Positions 9,673-39,147 of a stretch of 64,000 nucleotides of DNA are shown here, one piece after another. Positions within the stretch are counted from its first letter, which is position 1. Each line of letters begins with the position of its first letter. The stretch lies in the NCBI RefSeq assembly GCF_030145185.1, contig NZ_JAQYWB010000029.1, forward strand, positions 1 to 64,000, given 5' to 3'. The notes under the pieces were generated by a model. That model was given only the letters and a program-made list of their open reading frames with translations, searched no databases and had not been told where the DNA came from. A program made the position numbers and the translations under genes. The stretch comes from Desulfoluna sp. (GTDB lineage: Bacteria; Desulfobacterota; Desulfobacteria; Desulfobacterales; Desulfolunaceae).

Positions 9673-12600
9673 TTACTCGTCAAACTCATAAGCTCCGATG
9701 GACCAGGGGGCCGTTCTCGGATGGTCGTCACAATCGTTTCCGATCTGTTCTGCCGAAAGGTCTCTGCCCCCCCGGGTGACTTCTTGCGGGGAGCTCGCCT
9801 GAAGATGGGGGGCTGTTGCGGAGACGAACATCGGGTTGACGGAGACGTTGTCGCTTGATTGAAAGCCGGGTAAGCTGTGGTTCAGCGTGTCAACGTCCAT
9901 GGCGATTTTTTCACCCTTGTCATAGTAGCGAAACAGGCCATTCGGACAATCAAAGATGTTGTTGTTCCGGACAGACTCTGGACGGCAAGTGGGAGAGGAG
10001 GCGTTGAAGAAGATGCCGTACCGTTCGTCTCCGCCGGTAGTATAGATGATGTTGTTCTCAATCACCGGTTTTCCATTTTTGTGAAAGACCGAGACATCAA
10101 AGATACCATGGCTTTTTTCACCTGAACTACCTCCTGAAATGGTGTTATTCAATATTCGAGCGGAGGAGATCATGATGCTGATGCCATAGCTGGCTTCGGT
10201 TCCGGTACCTCCGTCAATGACATTGTTGATGATAAGCGGCCTGGGATCACCTGAAAAATTTGCAGACAGGAGAATTGCCGAGCAGGTTTCCGATCCGGGG
10301 CCTCCCGAAATATAATTATTTTTTATGAGGGGGGAGCATGCGGTTGTGGTCTGGATGCCGTATGTATAGGTCGCTCCCTCTTCAAGACCTCCGTATATGG
10401 AGTTGTGGCTTATGACAGGGGAGGCGTCAGCGGAGAGATGGATTCCCCAGGAACGTTCGGGGTCTACGTGCTTTGTGGCGATATGCTCATGATCATGCTG
10501 GTTTACATCCTGGCCGATGATGGTAAAGCCGTCGATCACCGTGTTGCGGGTTATGCCGCCCCCTGCTTCAACAGCATACCGGTCTGTTCCCCTGATTACC
10601 GTTTTGTATGTTTCATTCGCACGGTCCAGGTTGTTGCGGTCGGACCAGTAGAGTGAATGATATCCTCCGTAAAGCGAGATCCCTTCCTCCAATCGTATAT
10701 TTTCCTTGTAGGTTCCGGCGGCGACATGGAGGCAATCTCCGGGGATGGCATGATCGATGGCATGCTGGAGGGCTCGAAACGGTCGGGCCGAGGAACCGGT
10801 TCCGGGATGGTCGGTACCTGCTTTGACAAAAACAATGGTTTTATACCGTTCATAAAGGCCTCCGATGGCATAGGGAGCCTTACAGCCGGATTCATAGGCC
10901 CCTCTGTAAATGATGGCCGGGTTATTCTCTGAGTCAATGGCCAGATCAGAGGAATTGCCGATCCTGATCCCCGGCGCGGGGGCGTCAGTTGAATGATGGC
11001 GGTGCGGGTGCGCCGGGGTTGGCGGAGTGGCACCCGCTGCGGTGACCACCTTCCACCCGGTTCCGTTGTATAACCCGTACATGAGGCCATGGCTGTAATC
11101 CGAGGTGCCTTCCTCCTCACCGCTGTGGTGACGGGCACAGAAGGTGAGGTGGACACGGTTCTGGCCATCGGTTTTCGCACCCATAAGAAAAAAACCGTAA
11201 TAGGCGTCGGGATTTTCATAGATCAAGTCCGTAGCCCATGAGTCGTTGATTTTTTTTGCGCATTTGACCCCGTTCAGGATCCCGTCCAGCTCGTTTTCAT
11301 AGCCTGTCATGATATAGGGGATGTCATTGGCTAAGGTGAACCCCAGGGTGACCAGAAAGGTCTCGTTCCATCCGGCGGCATCGCCGACATTTTCGATGGC
11401 CCAGCTGCCCTCTTTCTTAACGCCATAGCGGAGATGCATCCCTGCAATGTTTACCTTCGGGTGGCCGTCCGCTGCCGTCACGGTGTTGCCGGCTTCATCT
11501 GTGATCAGTTCAAGGTCGGAGCATTTATACGCAATATGAGGGTTGTCCAGGGAATCGAGTTGCAGTTTTAAGCCGTTGTGCCCTGGGATCACTTCCGAGG
11601 CGTCGGTCATCTCGACATCTTCCAGGATCCATGAGTCCCCGTCATAAACGGCCATTCTGATGGCCTTTTTCCAAGCCGACCAGGCAATGACGATGTTGTT
11701 TTGGGAGTCGATTTGGATGCTGGGCCTGTCTCCTGCATTTTCATATTTATTGGTGTGGGAGCTGCGCTCCCCGTCAACCCATGTGACCGTCCCCCAAGCA
11801 CCTCCGCTGTTGTTAAGGTATCCCAGGGAGGTGTTGGCGACCGTTTGCCCGCGATACCCGAAGACCACATGGATCGCATCATTTTTGTCTATGGCCATGG
11901 CCGCACCCCGTTCGCCGGAGCCGGCTTCGCCTGCTATATCCTCCGTCGACCATTCTCCTGTTGCCTTTCCTTTTACCCCATGAACGAGTTTGAAGCCGTT
12001 CGATGCGGCAGGGTGTTTTGCCGTAACGGCTGCGCTTTTTTCAACTTCGGCCAGAAAGAGCACATGCAGGTTGCCTTTGGAATCGAACTCCGCGGATTGA
12101 ACCACCGCATTGGCTTCACTGAAAATGCGGTTGGCCGGAAGGATACCTTCGGGCCAGGAACTCTCAGCGGGCAGCAGGCCGGTGTAGAACTTACTGAATG
12201 TGTACATGTAGTCGGCGGCACTCTGGGCATCGGTGACCTTCGTGGGGGTCAGGATGGGCCACCAGTTCTCGTTCCGGATCCCCTCCATGATTTCGTCAAA
12301 ACCGGTTTTGTCGTATCTGATGTGGAGGTGCTGCTCCCCGCCCTTATGGTGGTCCAGAGGTTGAAGAATAAGATGACGGTATTTTTCGGCGGCTTCCGGG
12401 CTTCCCTCTTTCAGCATGAACTTCCGGGCGGGTTCTCCGCTCATGGTGCCGTCGCCAAGACTTTCGTATTCACAGGTGCATTGCACCGTGGTGCCATCCT
12501 GTTCATAAAAGGTGATGGTGTCGCCTTTAATTTTCAGGCGTCCGAAATCAGTATGGTAGGAGTCCTTGACCACGCCCTTGATATCATGGGCCGTATATCC

Positions 12601-12858
12601 TTCCTGCTCTGCAGCCATCTCCGTGAAATGTACCTGGGCTTCCTTTTCGTCCATGAGCGTGTAATGGCTCTTCCAGTCGCCCTCCCAGGCGGCCAGTGAG
12701 CCTTTTGTTGTCGGCTCCTGCGGGATCACATCGTCGTTGCTGTCTCCGCTCCCGCATCCATACAATCCGGTGAGCAGTAAAATAATAAGTGTTGTGATGA
12801 GCAGGTTGTTGAACGGCCGTTTTTTTCTTATCGCTGTCACGGGCTTTTTCCTTTTCAA
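9673..12858 (-). CDS. Giant metal-binding lipoprotein: ZinT-like, propeller and beta-helix parts
   Basis: This is a 1061-residue secreted lipoprotein. A basic, hydrophobic signal ends at a lipobox with Cys35 (LYGC). Residues about 52-230 resemble ZinT/YodA, a periplasmic zinc-binding fold: LAAWEGDWKSHY at the start, the HHKGGEQHLHIRYD histidine cluster, and the closing ENWWPILTPT. The middle (about 240-640) has repeated strand motifs (DSKGNLHVLF, DKNDAIHVVF, DSQNNIVIAW) like a sialidase-type propeller. The C-terminal third (about 690-1040) is a right-handed beta-helix of the DUF1565 type (AGTYKENI, VIDGFTI, ISHNSIYGG). Further histidine clusters occur, such as HPHRHH. Start is TTG at 12858, 8 bases after AAGGAG. 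It follows the TonB receptor gene and probably captures metal at the surface. Confidence 0.8.
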   Translation of the reverse strand: MKRKKPVTAIRKKRPFNNLLITTLIILLLTGLYGCGSGDSNDDVIPQEPTTKGSLAAWEGDWKSHYTLMDEKEAQVHFTEMAAEQEGYTAHDIKGVVKDSYHTDFGRLKIKGDTITFYEQDGTTVQCTCEYESLGDGTMSGEPARKFMLKEGSPEAAEKYRHLILQPLDHHKGGEQHLHIRYDKTGFDEIMEGIRNENWWPILTPTKVTDAQSAADYMYTFSKFYTGLLPAESSWPEGILPANRIFSEANAVVQSAEFDSKGNLHVLFLAEVEKSAAVTAKHPAASNGFKLVHGVKGKATGEWSTEDIAGEAGSGERGAAMAIDKNDAIHVVFGYRGQTVANTSLGYLNNSGGAWGTVTWVDGERSSHTNKYENAGDRPSIQIDSQNNIVIAWSAWKKAIRMAVYDGDSWILEDVEMTDASEVIPGHNGLKLQLDSLDNPHIAYKCSDLELITDEAGNTVTAADGHPKVNIAGMHLRYGVKKEGSWAIENVGDAAGWNETFLVTLGFTLANDIPYIMTGYENELDGILNGVKCAKKINDSWATDLIYENPDAYYGFFLMGAKTDGQNRVHLTFCARHHSGEEEGTSDYSHGLMYGLYNGTGWKVVTAAGATPPTPAHPHRHHSTDAPAPGIRIGNSSDLAIDSENNPAIIYRGAYESGCKAPYAIGGLYERYKTIVFVKAGTDHPGTGSSARPFRALQHAIDHAIPGDCLHVAAGTYKENIRLEEGISLYGGYHSLYWSDRNNLDRANETYKTVIRGTDRYAVEAGGGITRNTVIDGFTIIGQDVNQHDHEHIATKHVDPERSWGIHLSADASPVISHNSIYGGLEEGATYTYGIQTTTACSPLIKNNYISGGPGSETCSAILLSANFSGDPRPLIINNVIDGGTGTEASYGISIMISSARILNNTISGGSSGEKSHGIFDVSVFHKNGKPVIENNIIYTTGGDERYGIFFNASSPTCRPESVRNNNIFDCPNGLFRYYDKGEKIAMDVDTLNHSLPGFQSSDNVSVNPMFVSATAPHLQASSPQEVTRGGRDLSAEQIGNDCDDHPRTAPWSIGAYEFDE

Positions 12859-12984: not shown

Positions 12985-15339
12985 CTAAAATGAATAGGTG
13001 TAACGGGCCAGGACTGTCAGGGGCATGCCTTTGTATCCGTAATAAAAGGTGTCTCCCGTTTGGATGTCGGTGGCCGTGCCCAGATCGGAGGCATATTTCT
13101 GGTCAAAAAGATTCTCGATGCGAAGGGACAGCCTGTGTCTCCGTTGGTTTCCAAAATTTACAAAGCCCGAGAGGTCCGTGATAAAATAGTCTCCGTAATG
13201 GATCTCGCTGTCGTAGCGCGAGTCGATGTCTCCGATGTATCTTAAGGTCAGATCTGTTCCAAAACGGCCGGAACCGTGCCGGTATGAGGCCATTGCCCTG
13301 GCGGTTAAGTTCGGGGTGTCCCCTGTTTCCCTGTCAGGGGAGTCCGATTGGACCGGCGGATTTGTGTCGTCGTGGGAGGTGCTGTGGTGGCGTGTGGTGA
13401 CTTTGGGGGGAGGGGCGATAGCCGTTCGGGCCTCGGGAGTCCTTCGGGTGCTGATGTCCACGTAGGTCATGCTGCCGTGGAGCGACAGCTCATTGAGCGG
13501 CTGAAGCCGGGCCTGGAACTCGAATCCGTCAATTCGGGTTCTGCCCTCTGTGTTTTCGTATCTTGTCCACGTGGATGCTTCGGACGTTTGGGTAAGGTTG
13601 TCGATTTTGTGCGTGATCTCCTGGTGGAAATATCCCAGGTCCCAGTGGAAGAAAGAGCCGCTTCCGCCCATGCCGACGGTGGTGTTGAGACTCTCTTCAG
13701 GCTCAAGGTCAGGATTGCCTTTGGCGCTGCTTTCGTTCAGGTAAAGTTGTTCTGCTGTGGGGAGGCGGAAGGCGGTCCCGGCCGTGCCCCGGAGATAGGT
13801 TGTGCCGACCAGAGGTGTTTTAAGGTTCGCATTCCATATGGCCGTTCTATATTCATCCGTCCAGTTGTAGCGACCTCCAAAACCAATTCGGGTCTGGGGT
13901 GAAAAGGAGAGATACGGACGATACTCGGTGAACACCGCATAGACGTGTTCTTCCTTGTCGCTGATATTCCATACCTGATCTTCCGCCCAGTAATTCTGAT
14001 AATCTCCGCCGGCAAGGATTTCGTGATCGCCGATCATGAAGCTTCCCAGGAGATTGACGCCCTGGTCTTCATAGCCCCATCGTGCTTTGTTATTTACCCA
14101 GGTGCCGTCGTTTTTCTGGCTGCTGTGATCGGACCACCACCTGTGAGTATAGCCCTTTAAGTAATAGGAGATATGGTCGTTTACATCGTGGTCCCATTTG
14201 AGAAAGGCGATGTCTTCCGTGCGTTCGTTGTACGCGGAGATCTCTTTAAGTTCATTGAAATCGAAGCGTCCCTCATTGCGCTGGAGGTGTGCCTTGAGCG
14301 TGGCCGATCCCACAAGGTCGATATCTTTGAGGTACTTTATTCCAAGTGTGGAGCGGCTGTATCCGTGTTTGTTGTTCAGGGTGCTTCCGGCAAGTGTGCA
14401 GGCTTGGCTGCTGAAGAGTTCGTATCCGTCCCACTCCTCGAAGTCGCCAAAGACCAGGAAACCGTGATCCTTGATGGTTTCTCCGGCATGTCCAAAAATG
14501 TCTTTGTAGTCGTCACTTCCGCAGGAAAAACCGAGGGTCCCGCCAGCCTTTTCGGGGACAGGGGTTGTGATAATATTGATCACACCGGAGGCTGCATCCG
14601 TCCCATAATAGAGGCCTTCGCTGTTTTTGAGTATTTCGATGCGCTCAATGAACTTCACGCTGATGGTGTCCAGATATCCAGAGCCGTAGAGCCGGTTGTT
14701 CAACCTTACGCCATCAAGGAGCCAGAGTATCTGTGATCCCCCATGTATTCTTGCGGTCGCGTAATCTCCCCGTCCACCTTTGGCTGAGAGATAGAGGCCG
14801 GGGATCAGGGCCTGAAGGGTCTGGCTCAGATCCGTAAAACCGCCCTCCTCAATTGTCTCACGCGTAATGATTTCAACGGGGTGGCCGAAGTCTTCGAGTT
14901 CTCCAGAGAAGTGATCTTCAATCGTTCTGGCCTTTACGGTGATGGCCGTCAGCCTTTGGGCGGGGGGCGGGGACAAGGCCTCTTCAATCTGGTCTCTGGA
15001 AATCACCCAGTCGGCAGCATGGCCGTCGCCGGATTCAAGAACGATTCTCAGCGATGTCCTCTCCGGAATTTTAAAGGAAAAATCTCCCTCGGGGCCGGTT
15101 TCTCCCTCCAGCAGTTTTTTTCCATTTGAGCCATAAATCAGGAGCTTTCCCTGGTTTACTTTTTTTCCCGATGGATAGGTACTTTCAGTGAAAACGGTGT
15201 CACCGTCTATCCATGCAAAAACATTCGCTCTGTGGGCGTCCGCCTGGCCTGCTCCCATCAGTGTAACAAGCATTACAAGCAACAAAAGAGCAAAACCCTT
15301 TCCTCTGGAGGTGTCGTTTGAGCAGAATTTTTCCATCAT
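12985..15339 (-). CDS. TonB-dependent receptor with N-terminal NikL-like domain
   Basis: This outer-membrane receptor of about 784 residues has, in order, a signal peptide (FALLLLVMLVTLMGAGQADA), a NikL-like domain of about 85 residues starting AHRANVFAWIDGDTVFTEST, a plug (ETIEEGGFTDLSQTLQALIP to YGTDAASGVINIITT) and a 22-strand-type barrel ending in TYSF. The N-terminal domain closely parallels the nickel ECF component NikL at 37057 (AHRINIFALDEGGEVYTEST). A His/Asp-rich loop (TTRHHSTSHDDTNPP) lies in the barrel. I infer uptake of nickel, cobalt or zinc. The start at 15339 sits before the signal peptide; the frame stays open to 15534. The ZinT-like lipoprotein gene follows 126 bases later. 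Confidence 0.88.
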   Translation of the reverse strand: MMEKFCSNDTSRGKGFALLLLVMLVTLMGAGQADAHRANVFAWIDGDTVFTESTYPSGKKVNQGKLLIYGSNGKKLLEGETGPEGDFSFKIPERTSLRIVLESGDGHAADWVISRDQIEEALSPPPAQRLTAITVKARTIEDHFSGELEDFGHPVEIITRETIEEGGFTDLSQTLQALIPGLYLSAKGGRGDYATARIHGGSQILWLLDGVRLNNRLYGSGYLDTISVKFIERIEILKNSEGLYYGTDAASGVINIITTPVPEKAGGTLGFSCGSDDYKDIFGHAGETIKDHGFLVFGDFEEWDGYELFSSQACTLAGSTLNNKHGYSRSTLGIKYLKDIDLVGSATLKAHLQRNEGRFDFNELKEISAYNERTEDIAFLKWDHDVNDHISYYLKGYTHRWWSDHSSQKNDGTWVNNKARWGYEDQGVNLLGSFMIGDHEILAGGDYQNYWAEDQVWNISDKEEHVYAVFTEYRPYLSFSPQTRIGFGGRYNWTDEYRTAIWNANLKTPLVGTTYLRGTAGTAFRLPTAEQLYLNESSAKGNPDLEPEESLNTTVGMGGSGSFFHWDLGYFHQEITHKIDNLTQTSEASTWTRYENTEGRTRIDGFEFQARLQPLNELSLHGSMTYVDISTRRTPEARTAIAPPPKVTTRHHSTSHDDTNPPVQSDSPDRETGDTPNLTARAMASYRHGSGRFGTDLTLRYIGDIDSRYDSEIHYGDYFITDLSGFVNFGNQRRHRLSLRIENLFDQKYASDLGTATDIQTGDTFYYGYKGMPLTVLARYTYSF

Positions 15340-15538: not shown

Positions 15539-15588
15539 AAGGAGGCAGCCCATTCTCTTGCCGGAGCCGGGCTGTCTCCTTTTTTTTG
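15539..15588 (+). terminator. Plus-strand terminator-like hairpin in the receptor leader
   Basis: GGAGGCAGCCC (15541-15551) pairs with GGGCTGTCTCC (15569-15579) with one G-T wobble, and eight T follow on the plus strand. No plus-strand gene precedes it, while the receptor leader runs through it on the minus strand. It may end an antisense or small RNA, or be a structural part of the leader. Confidence 0.6.
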
Positions 15589-15670
15589 TCAGTTCATCGC
15601 ATAGCAATGGAACATTTTTTTTATGATCAAAAACAATCATTACAGATGTTTGTAGGTCTTCGTTTTGAAA

Positions 15671-15724
15671 ATAAAAAAGCCACAAAATCAGGTGAGAGAA
15701 ACGTTTCACCTGCCTTCATGGCTT
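15671..15724 (-). terminator. Minus-strand terminator or attenuator upstream of the receptor
   Basis: On the minus strand, AAGCCA pairs with TGGCTT outside, and CAGGTGA with TCACCTG inside, followed by a TTTTTT run. It could simply end a transcript from truA (stop at 16142). Alternatively it could be an attenuator in the receptor leader, because the same TCACCT/AGGTGA sequence recurs at 15787-15802 and could compete for pairing. Confidence 0.6.
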
Positions 15725-15786
15725 GGCTGCTTATTATGGTCGGTTCGTTAAATTGTTACAAGGTAGTCATTTTAAATTTGTTACTT

Positions 15787-15802
15787 CTCACCTTCAGGTG
15801 AG
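15787..15802. promoter_or_regulatory. CTCACCT-TC-AGGTGAG palindrome, candidate operator
   Basis: This 16-base element is two 7-base arms with a 2-base spacer. Its arms repeat the inner stem of the hairpin at 15671-15724. Adjacent sequence is AT-rich (TATATTTATA). It lies about 460 bases upstream of the TonB receptor start. It could be a metal-regulator site or an antiterminator arm. Confidence 0.4.
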
Positions 15803-15989
15803 TATATTTATACTGACTTTTCATACCTTGGCCTTTGTGTCAACAGCTAAAATAAAGCAGGATAGAATATCCGACAGTAGACCCGGGTGGGTGTTTGCAT
15901 ACATTAATGATTCGCTGGGTGTCGACTTTTCGGGCGTTTTGTCGAACAAGTCAGGCGAAGAGTGATTTGACAGTGGCAGGATTTTGCTC

Positions 15990-35303: not shown

Positions 35304-35363
35304 TTGACAAGAGCATTTCCTTCACGGTATCTGTGTTAAATAATAGCAGACACGAAGTCTGCT
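35304..35363 (+). promoter_or_regulatory. Candidate promoter and operator of the nik operon
   Basis: A perfect TTGACA at 35304-35309 is followed 18 bases later by TATCTG, a weak -10. Immediately downstream are GTGTT (35333-35337) and GACAC (35349-35353), a 4-of-5 inverted pair, and AGCAGAC-ACGAA-GTCTGCT (35345-35363), a perfect 7-base one. The placement suits a repressor such as NikR, but no known consensus is matched. Confidence 0.4.
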
Positions 35364-35478
35364 GCGAGTCTCGTTGTTCTCAGTTGTCATGAATGGGCAT
35401 TCCACGAAGGTAAAAGGCCACGAAGGCTTTCCGGTTTACTTAATGGTGGTTTTTTGCTTTTTGAAATGGAGGAAAGAG

Positions 35479-36249
35479 ATGAAACGCTACGCAGCAGCCG
35501 TTGTTCTGACTTTAATGGTCTCCCTTCCCACGTCCGCCCTGGCCCATTTTGGCATGGTGATTCCTGACACATCCGTTGTTTCCCAGAAAACCGGAAAACA
35601 GGTCGATCTGGCCCTTTCTTTTTCACACCCCTTTGAGGGCATCGGCATGCCCCTTGAAAAGCCGGCGGAGTTTTCCGTTGTGATGGACGGGCACACCCAG
35701 GACCTGACAAAGACGCTTACCCCGATACAGGTCATGGGCCATTCTGCCTGGGCCTCCAGCTATGCCGTGAAGAGACCTGGGGTCTATCATTTCGTCATGA
35801 CTCCGACTCCCTACTGGGAGCCCGCCGAAGATATTTTCATCATCCATTATACCAAAACCATCGTTCCGGCCTATGGCGGCGAGGAGGGCTGGGATGAAGA
35901 GCTGGGCCTCAAGACGGAAATTGTGCCCCTGACCCGTCCCTTCGGCCTCTATGCAGGCAACCTCTTTCAGGGGGTTGTAAAACTCGATGGTAAGGTGGTC
36001 CCCGGGGCCGAAGTGGAAGTGGAATTTTATAATCGGGACGGCAAGGCAAAAGCCGCCAACGACTACCTGGTGACCCAGGTGGTGAAGGCTGACGTCAACG
36101 GAATTTTCTCTTTCACCGTGCCCACCGATGGCTGGTGGGGTTTTTCAGCCTTGAATGAGGCGGATTACCAGCTGGAAGCGGAGGGTCAGAAGAAGGGCGT
36201 TGAGCTGGGTGCCGTTCTCTGGGTTGAGTTTACCAAGTGGCAGGGATGA
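35479..36249 (+). CDS. nikK: NikK-type periplasmic protein (DUF4198) of the nickel importer
   Basis: This 256-residue protein is the DUF4198 component (NikK) of an ECF-type nickel transporter. A signal peptide (AAAVVLTLMVSLPTSALA) precedes the mature AHFGMVIPDTSVV, where a histidine right after the cleavage site is typical of metal-binding members. An Ig-like domain with VVPGAEVEVEFYN and a GWWGFSALN turn follow. It is predicted to present or bind Ni2+ outside the membrane for NikM. The start at 35479 has GGAGGAAA 5 bases upstream; the long in-frame extension to 35374 is not supported. nikM follows after 178 bases. Confidence 0.88.
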   Translation: MKRYAAAVVLTLMVSLPTSALAHFGMVIPDTSVVSQKTGKQVDLALSFSHPFEGIGMPLEKPAEFSVVMDGHTQDLTKTLTPIQVMGHSAWASSYAVKRPGVYHFVMTPTPYWEPAEDIFIIHYTKTIVPAYGGEEGWDEELGLKTEIVPLTRPFGLYAGNLFQGVVKLDGKVVPGAEVEVEFYNRDGKAKAANDYLVTQVVKADVNGIFSFTVPTDGWWGFSALNEADYQLEAEGQKKGVELGAVLWVEFTKWQG

Positions 36250-36427
36250 TGTGACCCTGAGGGTGGCTCGGATTTTAACGCTTCGGGCCATTAAGATAAA
36301 GATGATGTGTGCAATAAGGCATCATCGCAAAAGCGCCTCGCAACGTCACCCCGTGTTGTACGGCAGGTCCGAATATCGCGTGAGTGCCTGTTTGCGAGGT
36401 CCTTGAGAGCGACCAAGGAATTCAGCA

Positions 36428-37060
36428 ATGCATATTTCGGAAGGTGTTTTGTCCGCCCCGGTTCTTATCGCGGGGGCTGTTGTTGCCGCAGGCGGTGTGG
36501 CTTATGGGTTGAAGCGCATGGACGGAGAAGGAACCGTCAGCGCGGCCCTGGTGACCTCCGCTTTTTTTGTGGCCTCTCTGATTCATCTCAATATCGGACC
36601 GGCCAGCGTTCATCTGGTGCTTAACGGGCTGGTGGGGCTGGTCCTTGGCTGGGCGGCTTTTCCGGCGATTTTTACCGGGCTGCTCCTTCAGGCCCTTCTC
36701 TTTCAATACGGGGGGTTGACCACCCTGGGGGTGAACACCGTGGTGATGGCCGCCCCGGCCGTGGCCGTCTCCCTGATGCTGTCGCCTCTGATCACGCGTA
36801 AAGGGCGCATGGGGGCAGTCGCCTCCTTTGGGTGCGGATTTCTTGCCGTGTTCTTCTCATCCCTTCTTCTGGCCGCTGCCCTGGTCTTTACGGGTGAAAA
36901 TTTCAAGGTGATCGCCTGGGCCTCCGTCATTGGCAATGCCCCTGTGATGGTGGTTGAAGGATTCTTCACCGCTTTTGTGGTCTCTTTTCTCCGGCGTGTC
37001 TACCCGGAGCTGCTTCTCTGCCTTACCCCTGAGCCGCCCCAGATGGAGGAACGCATATGA
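36428..37060 (+). CDS. nikM: Nickel ECF transporter substrate-binding membrane subunit NikM
   Basis: NikM (CbiM family) is the S-component that binds Ni2+ in the membrane. The protein is 210 residues with about seven hydrophobic segments. Its N-terminus MHISEGVLS provides the Met1 and His2 used for metal coordination in CbiM/NikM structures, and a further histidine lies in NIGPASVHLVLNG. The end of the protein is cytoplasmic. It is followed by nikL with an overlapping ATGA, and nikQ and nikO complete the unit. Nickel rather than cobalt is inferred from the NikK/NikL partners; CbiN is absent. Confidence 0.92.
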   Translation: MHISEGVLSAPVLIAGAVVAAGGVAYGLKRMDGEGTVSAALVTSAFFVASLIHLNIGPASVHLVLNGLVGLVLGWAAFPAIFTGLLLQALLFQYGGLTTLGVNTVVMAAPAVAVSLMLSPLITRKGRMGAVASFGCGFLAVFFSSLLLAAALVFTGENFKVIAWASVIGNAPVMVVEGFFTAFVVSFLRRVYPELLLCLTPEPPQMEERI

Positions 37061-37623
37061 AATCTCTGCGTTTTATTTTGCTCCTTGGCCTTTTCATTGC
37101 CCTGGCCTCTCCTGCCCTGGCTCATCGGATCAATATTTTTGCCCTGGACGAAGGGGGTGAGGTGTACACGGAAAGTACCTTTGCCGGAAAACGTCCGGTG
37201 AAGAAGGGGGTGATTCGCGTGTTTAACGTTGAAGGCACCCTGGTCTATACCGGTCAGACCGATGAGAAGGGCATTTGCACCTTTCCGAGGCCGGAGCCGG
37301 GCGCTTTGACCCTTGAGGTCGATGCGGGGATGGGCCATAAAAATAGTTGGGCGCTGGAATCTTCAGACCCGGCGGTTGCCTCCAATGAACCGGTTCTCAT
37401 GCCCAACGATTCGGCGGTTGTTCCACCGAAGACCGCCTCCGTGGGGGGACTCTCTCCCGCAGACTGGAAGCGCATGGAACAGGTGGTGGATACGGCGGTG
37501 GCCAAGTCGTTGCACCAGGCCAGGGAAGAGACTCGGCTTCAGGATATCGTGGGGGGGATCGGTTATATTGTTGGTTTTTTTGGGCTGTTTGCCTGGATTC
37601 GAAGCCGTCGGGAGGCCGTGTGA
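37057..37623 (+). CDS. nikL: NikL-type accessory component of the nickel importer
   Basis: This 188-residue protein has a signal peptide (LLLGLFIALASPALA), a mature AHRINIFALDEGGEVYTEST domain of about 85 residues with a carboxypeptidase-regulatory-like fold, a linker, and a C-terminal membrane helix (IGYIVGFFGLFAWI). This is the NikL arrangement in NikKMLQO systems, where NikL accompanies NikM. Its extracytoplasmic domain is closely similar to the N-terminal domain of the TonB receptor at 12985-15339. It overlaps nikM by four bases (ATGA) and nikQ by four bases (GTGA), which fixes its position in a single operon. Confidence 0.9.
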   Translation: MKSLRFILLLGLFIALASPALAHRINIFALDEGGEVYTESTFAGKRPVKKGVIRVFNVEGTLVYTGQTDEKGICTFPRPEPGALTLEVDAGMGHKNSWALESSDPAVASNEPVLMPNDSAVVPPKTASVGGLSPADWKRMEQVVDTAVAKSLHQAREETRLQDIVGGIGYIVGFFGLFAWIRSRREAV

Positions 37624-38402
37624 ACGAACCGTTTATCGATATTGATTCACCGATTCACCGAACCTCTCCTGCCGTGAGGGTGGCCGTCGCCTTTTTACTT
37701 TCCCTGGTGACGGCGCTGGCAAAGACACCCGTCGTCCCCCTGGCTGCCCTGGTCTTGGGCGTTTTTTCGGTGCTTGTGGCTCGGCTTCCCTTAGGGGCTG
37801 TGGCCAAGCGTCTGCTCCCCCTCTGTTTTTTTCTGATTCTCCTTTGGGTGGTCCTTCCCTTCACCGGGGGAGGCCCGGTTCTCCACACCTTTGGCCCCTT
37901 GACCGTCAAGGCGGACGGCCTGAACCTTGCCCTTCTTATCAGCCTGAAAGCCTTTTCTATTTTGCTGGTGCTGATGGCTTTGGTTTCCACCCTGCACACC
38001 TTTGCCATGGGGCACGCCCTTTACGCCCTGGGCATGCCGGAAAAGCTGACCTTCCTCATCGTGATGAGCGCCCGTTATATTTCCGTAATTGAACGTGAAT
38101 ACCAGAAGTTGAGGAACGCAGCCCGGATGAGGGGGTTCCAGCCCGACACCTCCCTTCATTCGTATCGAACCTTTGCCCACCTTGCTGCCATGCTTCTGGT
38201 CCGTTCCCATCTGCGCGCCGGCCGTGTTTACAACGCCATGGTGCTGCGAGGTTTTGACGGCCGGTTTCGTCTGCTGACGGACTCCCGTCCCGAAGGGCTG
38301 CGGGGCTGTCTTCCCCAAACCGCCGTGATGGCCTTTTCCGTGGTTGTTCTTGTCGCCCTTGAGGTGGCGGTGCGCATGGGTTGGGGTCTGTTTAACTGCT
38401 AA
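37620..38402 (+). CDS. nikQ: Nickel ECF transporter T-component NikQ
   Basis: NikQ (CbiQ family) is the membrane coupling subunit that links NikM to the ATPase. It has 260 residues and about six membrane segments. The cytoplasmic coupling helices carry AARMRGF and the second Ala-Arg-Gly-like motif in VYNAMVLRGFDGRF. The start is a GTG overlapping the nikL stop (GTGA). nikO follows 22 bases after the stop. There are no odd features beyond the compact overlaps. Confidence 0.92.
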   Translation: MNEPFIDIDSPIHRTSPAVRVAVAFLLSLVTALAKTPVVPLAALVLGVFSVLVARLPLGAVAKRLLPLCFFLILLWVVLPFTGGGPVLHTFGPLTVKADGLNLALLISLKAFSILLVLMALVSTLHTFAMGHALYALGMPEKLTFLIVMSARYISVIEREYQKLRNAARMRGFQPDTSLHSYRTFAHLAAMLLVRSHLRAGRVYNAMVLRGFDGRFRLLTDSRPEGLRGCLPQTAVMAFSVVVLVALEVAVRMGWGLFNC

Positions 38403-38424
38403 ATGATCATTCAGGAGTGTGCGA

Positions 38425-39147
38425 ATGGATGGACCATTGATGACGCTGTCGGGGTTGACCTATACGTATCCCGGTGGCCGTGACCCGGTAATTGACGGGT
38501 TGGATTTCACCATTTCCGAAGGGGCGAGCCTTGGGCTCATTGCCCCCAACGGCAGTGGAAAAACGACCTTGTTTCATCTGATGATGGGGCTTTTAAAACC
38601 CCAGGCCGGTGTGTTGACGGCCTTTGGCAGGGAGGTGACCGGGGAGAAGGGGTTTCGAGAGGTGAGGCGTCGGGTGGGGTTTTTGTTTCAGGACGCCGAT
38701 GACCAGCTTTTCAGCCCGACGGTGATAGAGGATGTGGCCTTTGGCCCTCGGAATCTCGGGATGGGGCCTGAGGAGGCGCGGTCCAAGGCGAGGGCGGTGC
38801 TTTTAGAGTTGGGGCTTGCCGGTTACGAAGATCGGATTACCTTCCGGCTTTCCGGTGGGGAGAAACGGATGGTGGCCCTGGCCACGGTGCTTGCCATGGA
38901 CCCGGATCTGCTTCTCCTGGACGAGCCCACCACGGGGTTGGATCATGAAACCTTTAAGCGGCTGGTGGCTGTGCTTCAAGCCTCCAAGGTGGCGCGCGTG
39001 GTGATCTCCCACGATTTTGATTTTCTGGAGAAGGTGGCGGATTCCATGTGCAGCCTGGTGCGGGGAAAAATCGTCATGGATGAGGGGCTTCATCTGCATC
39101 GGCATGCTCATGTGCATCGTCACGGGGATAATCCTCATTATCACTGA
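38425..39147 (+). CDS. nikO: Nickel ECF transporter ATPase NikO with His-rich tail
   Basis: NikO (CbiO family) is the ABC ATPase, 240 residues. Walker A is APNGSGKTTLFH, the signature RLSGGEKRMVALA, Walker B LLLLDEPTTGLDH, and the switch His is in RVVISHDFDFL. The last 20 residues (HLHRHAHVHRHGDNPHYH) are histidine-rich and may store or sense nickel. The start at 38425 has AGGAG 7 bases upstream. The last 74 bases overlap the convergent glycosyltransferase-like gene, so the His-rich tail is encoded opposite that gene's C-terminus. Confidence 0.93.
   Translation: MDGPLMTLSGLTYTYPGGRDPVIDGLDFTISEGASLGLIAPNGSGKTTLFHLMMGLLKPQAGVLTAFGREVTGEKGFREVRRRVGFLFQDADDQLFSPTVIEDVAFGPRNLGMGPEEARSKARAVLLELGLAGYEDRITFRLSGGEKRMVALATVLAMDPDLLLLDEPTTGLDHETFKRLVAVLQASKVARVVISHDFDFLEKVADSMCSLVRGKIVMDEGLHLHRHAHVHRHGDNPHYH

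Follow-up and report, generated by a model that had tools for sequence, protein, structure and literature searches.

How does a TonB-dependent receptor come to begin with a domain of a nickel importer, and what would that domain do there? The question is raised by a gene in a 64 kb stretch of a Desulfoluna contig (the window), which also holds a nikKMLQO operon (35479–39147). NikL is a component of the NikKMLQO nickel ECF importers (Rodionov 2004, PMC545781; Zhang 2009, PMC2667541). The original prediction, made from the letters of the DNA, claimed that the receptor starts like NikL once its signal peptide is removed, and that receptor and importer are linked in metal uptake. The features discussed below are collected in Table 1.

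Table 1. Features of the window, with positions counted from its first nucleotide.
Feature	Position	Strand	Basis
Lipoprotein gene downstream of the receptor: ZinT domain, BNR-like middle, parallel beta-helix (DUF1565)	9673..12858	-	Pfam
TonB-dependent receptor with N-terminal NikL domain, 784 aa	12985..15339	-	intact ORF
Receptor signal peptide, residues 1-35, predicted cleavage ADA|H	15235..15339	-	sequence, AxA rule
Receptor NikL domain, residues 36-116, with His36 and His107 (Gly-His motif)	14992..15234	-	NikL profile match
TonB-box-like stretch LTAITVKA, residues 130-137, between NikL domain and plug	14929..14952	-	by eye from sequence
Receptor plug domain, residues 149-253	14581..14895	-	Pfam
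His-rich insertion HHSTSHDD, residues 651-658, disordered loop	13366..13389	-	alignment of relatives, model
Receptor 5' leader: TTGACA, hairpin CTCACC-TGAA-GGTGAG (15802-15787)	15664..15862	-	folding, pattern and covariance-model scans
Terminator of receptor leader, GCCATGAAGG...TTGTGGCTTTTTT	from 15722	-	folding, pattern scan
nikK leader: TTGACA, hairpin GCAGAC-ACGAA-GTCTGC	35304..35457	+	pattern and covariance-model scans
Terminator of nikK leader, CCACGAAGG...GGTGGTTTTTT	within 35304..35457	+	pattern scan
nikK (DUF4198)	35479..36249	+	Pfam, 6.6e-60
nikM (CbiM family)	36428..37060	+	Pfam
nikL	37057..37623	+	NF058648, 3.6e-41
nikQ (CbiQ family)	37620..38402	+	Pfam
nikO (ABC ATPase)	38419..39147	+	Pfam

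The plug (PF07715, E = 1.4e-18) and the barrel (PF00593, E = 5e-30) of the receptor are recognized by Pfam, and ahead of them residues 24–127 match the NikL family, NCBIfam NF058648, with 85.5 bits (E = 4.3e-24); NikL of the operon scores 141 bits against the same profile. Aligned with each other, the receptor domain and NikL share 33% identity over 96 residues (E = 7e-17). Judged by sequence, this similarity is far above chance, and the NikL-like start of the receptor that had been claimed is real. The match covers only profile positions 2–106 of 180, and the score falls below the whole-protein curated cut-off of 100 bits. In the AlphaFold model of the receptor (pTM 0.80, best PDB match BtuB) the NikL domain leads into a disordered linker that holds the TonB-box-like stretch; because the domain precedes this putative TonB box, it should be located in the periplasm. 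A comparison of AlphaFold models, proposed originally as a check, finds seven strands in identical order in both domains: NikL is predicted confidently as a seven-strand sandwich, and the receptor domain reproduces its strand order with moderate confidence (pLDDT mostly 45–77). The fold alone says little, because NikL finds its best structural match in the MG domains of Escherichia coli alpha-2-macroglobulin (Z 13.5). CopC is among the weak structural matches.

The signal peptide of the receptor ends in ADA, so that the mature protein should start at His36; the original prediction was right about the likeness to NikL at this point and probably wrong in making alanine the first residue. NikL at 37057 behaves in the same way, since predicted cleavage after ALA likewise leaves a histidine first. 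The residue next to the AxA site is histidine in every one of 61 NikL-type sequences of the class, a set picked with [AG]H, which favours this very residue. A Gly-His some 70 residues downstream is kept in 57 of the 58 sequences that reach that point, the receptor among them. In other secreted proteins an N-terminal histidine with a free amine and a second histidine form a pair that binds Cu or Ni. By analogy we infer that His36 and His107 of the receptor form a metal site. The receptor thus resembles NikL of NikKMLQO in domain sequence, mature N-terminal histidine, distal Gly-His, periplasmic side and type of leader (see below), and differs from it in that linker, plug and barrel replace the C-terminal membrane helix and that the gene lies outside the nik operon.

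The fusion is rare. Among the matches listed, no second one was found in 389 genomes of the class, 395 genomes of the phylum, 27 named loci and a plasmid collection, which led us to reject a widespread class of NikL receptors, and a search for related loci with the receptor alone as query found nothing; a distant fusion to an unrelated receptor could have escaped these listings. The closest receptor relatives (38–50% overall identity) all lack the NikL domain, as does a relative with a long frame (L178). As a singleton in an unclosed assembly, the fusion carries limited general weight. We also rejected duplication of the resident NikL: the receptor domain clusters, weakly, with NikLs from another family, and on this weakly supported placement it appears not to derive from the resident protein. 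The sequences with which it groups are ECF NikLs, apart from those associated with ZnuABC. The latter are single-domain NikL-like proteins of 122 aa, encoded in ZnuABC-type operons with DUF6162 (L098 1070–1438, L099 7486–7854, L100 7476–7844); judging from such sequences, NikL-like domains occur beyond nickel ECF systems. A third, divergent NikL-type gene of the receptor's genome lies beside a DUF4198 gene, apart from any ECF genes (G000, contig C122; L003 1378–2720). Elsewhere, NikL matches in G227, G052, G726, G606, G646, G491, G613 and G005 have one in-frame TGA inside the match, perhaps an alignment overrunning the stop, or something else.

A basis for nickel that is independent of the domain match is provided by the leader that the receptor shares with nikK. 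The terminator pattern occurs at just two loci in the window, before these two genes. In an unfiltered scan of the 64 kb with covariance model R2, built from neither window sequence, the receptor and nikK leaders rank 2 and 3, with E-values that are individually weak (0.15 and 0.31); the top-ranked match (60157), located opposite an ORF on the other strand, we regard as a chance hit. The DUF4198–NikL pair of contig C122 is preceded by the leader too, so that all three NikL-domain loci found in the genome carry it. Similarity to the receptor leader is also seen ahead of an exbB-exbD-tonB-receptor-FmdE operon, both in this genome and in two congeners. A hairpin before the receptor (15560–15600, minus strand) is similar to a hairpin that in G264 and G299 separates tonB from the receptor gene, which looks as though an exbBD-tonB stretch had been lost ahead of the receptor. 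Control by a NikR operator or a cobalamin riboswitch was rejected, since the site GTGTTAC-N13/14-GTAACAC is absent from the 64 kb at up to three mismatches and no cobalamin riboswitch was found before the receptor or elsewhere in the window. The genome has one Fur-family gene, and we know of no Zur operator for this lineage. The proposed link between receptor and importer thus finds support in their common leader type, and a connection of the receptor with nickel is supported, mainly by regulation.

The leader extends well beyond this genome. Model R1, built from four leaders of the receptor type (those of exbB-exbD-tonB operons included, nik leaders excluded), finds matches in the genus and family before genes for TonB receptors, FmdE, DUF4198, cbiM and DUF3842, named partly by eye from translations, and a pattern drawn from these matches locates the element before nikK, nikM and further receptors in other loci. 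Across the class, copies outside the window (L126, L148–L177) precede nikKMLQO, TonB receptor, exbBD-tonB, DUF4198, DUF3842 and FmdE genes. R2 has matches in 76 of 117 class genomes and 46 of 70 genera. At the best R2 locus per genome (n = 30) the next gene is nikK in 16 cases and nikM in one, a nikK share that is biased upward because R2 was built mainly from nik leaders; other next genes encode DUF4198 and DUF3842 proteins, a TonB receptor, porin-like proteins and binding proteins.

The alignment of 39 instances, made by fitting to the model, is biased in the model's favour. In it each of the six base pairs of the first hairpin varies at both positions and 96% of cells are paired; covariation scores 0.407, compared with 0.167 (sd 0.012) when shuffled and at most 0.10 when slid. 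Single leader sequences folded alone give the same structure. The hairpin loop is [ACU]GAA in most rows, the 5' arm of the terminator, CCA[CU]GAAGG, is conserved beyond what pairing alone requires, and a GAA apical loop is present in 22 of the 39 terminators (17% in shuffles). We judge a protein-binding DNA dyad unlikely, because the stems differ among loci while the loop is conserved. The element is marked by a hairpin that covaries and is capped by an NGAA loop, and by a terminator whose 5' arm is nearly invariant. Like the NiCo (czcD) riboswitch (RF02683) and the cobalamin riboswitch (RF00174), it is a cis-acting RNA located ahead of genes for metal or cofactor transport, but it matches no Rfam model and precedes nickel uptake genes; the literature searched holds no description of such an element. 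NikR was found in 4 of the 117 class genomes, that of the receptor not among them. The nickel-binding protein family CooT is present in 105 of the 117, and several genomes have a CooT gene a short way downstream of a leader; an action of CooT on the leader is speculative. On balance we lean, by a little, towards the view that the leader is an undescribed class of regulatory RNA that controls nickel uptake in Desulfobacterota that for the most part have no NikR, and that the NikL-fused receptor is among its targets. The leader may act as a riboswitch, or a metal-binding protein may act on it as an antiterminator.

The most economical account of the locus is a BtuB-like receptor in the nickel regulon; we give the account as a whole, with the tethered NikL as a periplasmic metal acceptor, an even chance. 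A receptor of the BtuB-like clade would have been recruited into the nickel regulon of the lineage, and would have gained a NikL domain at its N-terminus, facing the periplasm immediately before the putative TonB box. The receptor would probably import Ni(II), free or chelated, over the outer membrane. On leaving the barrel the ion would be bound by the tethered domain, by way of His36 and His107, and would then be passed in the periplasm to NikK/NikL and on to NikMQO. The leader RNA, a short hairpin with a GAA loop followed by the conserved terminator, would set receptor expression and, being of the same type before nikKMLQO, the importers of both membranes would be co-produced. We infer nickel as the substrate, metal binding, the hand-off and the sensing of nickel status by the leader. 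Several features speak against nickel: the closest receptors are BtuB-like and several stand under cobalamin riboswitches, the adjacent gene encodes a ZinT domain, the receptor has a His-rich loop, and NikL-like single-domain proteins occur in ZnuABC operons. The cobalamin riboswitches of the BtuB-like kin and the adjoining ZinT gene leave cobalt or corrinoids, and zinc, some probability as substrates.

The neighbouring gene suggests a receptor that would work like ZnuD on zinc (or zinc/cadmium), in which NikL would be a general divalent-metal acceptor, the His-rich outer loop would catch Zn(II) and the ZinT lipoprotein would serve as a surface or periplasmic partner. The ZinT domain (E = 9.1e-14) has no match among PDB sequences by phmmer, and the lipoprotein has an HRHHST stretch like the RHHSTSHDD of the receptor. 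Among seven genomes of the family, ZinT and (in the matches listed) the fusion are both confined to this one; the other genomes of the genus and family have neither. The short NikL-like proteins stand in operons with two ZnuA-type binding proteins, and a His-rich loop like that of the receptor, an insertion which six compared relatives lack, is found in ZnuD and other zinc receptors. However, the leader is that of nickel genes, the weak grouping of the NikL domain is with ECF NikLs rather than the ZnuABC-associated ones, and the ZnuD model is absent from the 23 NCBIfam matches of the receptor. We consider a zinc receptor unlikely, if well worth keeping in view. A corrinoid or cobalt substrate, with the receptor as a relative of BtuB that takes up cobalamin, cobinamide or Co(II) chelates and with NikL handling cobalt, we regard as quite unlikely. 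The barrel is BtuB-like by family models, by PDB sequence and by structure, sharing plug and barrel with BtuB as its best model and best PDB match. Cobalamin riboswitches precede three close relatives (L063, L065, L066), at about 50% identity; a nickel-type leader lies upstream of two others (L064, L067), which adjoin an ABC transporter, a DUF4198 protein and, by eye, a methyltransferase. In L065 (6660–12250) the BtuB-like receptor adjoins nikM-nikL-nikQ and cobalamin riboswitches precede both, an arrangement that suggests a NikMLQO set working with cobalt; cobalt can be served by NikK1ML1QO sets (Zhang et al., PMC2667541). Set against this, the match to BtuB (TIGR01779) reaches 138.4 bits, far under the curated cut-off of 599.7, and the receptor, unlike BtuB, lacks a cobalamin riboswitch and has a NikL domain and a His-rich loop.

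The domain might also handle no metal at all and act as an N-terminal extension for gating or signalling, of the Ig-like kind known from Bacteroidetes or a secretin-like one. Such NTE domains occupy the equivalent position in the chain of receptors, and NikL is a common Ig-like sandwich, as its alpha-2-macroglobulin neighbours illustrate. That both conserved histidine positions are kept, that the region is strongly NikL-like and that it has no CarboxypepD_reg match argue otherwise, and we hold this the least probable of the readings weighed here.

If recruitment of a BtuB-like receptor to the nickel regulon is the true account, the outer and the inner membrane share one nickel-handling domain, and a single leader type sets both importers. 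For NikL, whose part in the importer is unsettled, the conserved histidine at the mature N-terminus points to a concrete metal site. The leader RNA is the broader result and may outweigh the fusion in importance. To our knowledge there is no settled answer to how nickel is sensed without NikR in these nickel-enzyme-rich anaerobes, and the leader makes NikR-independent nickel sensing directly testable.
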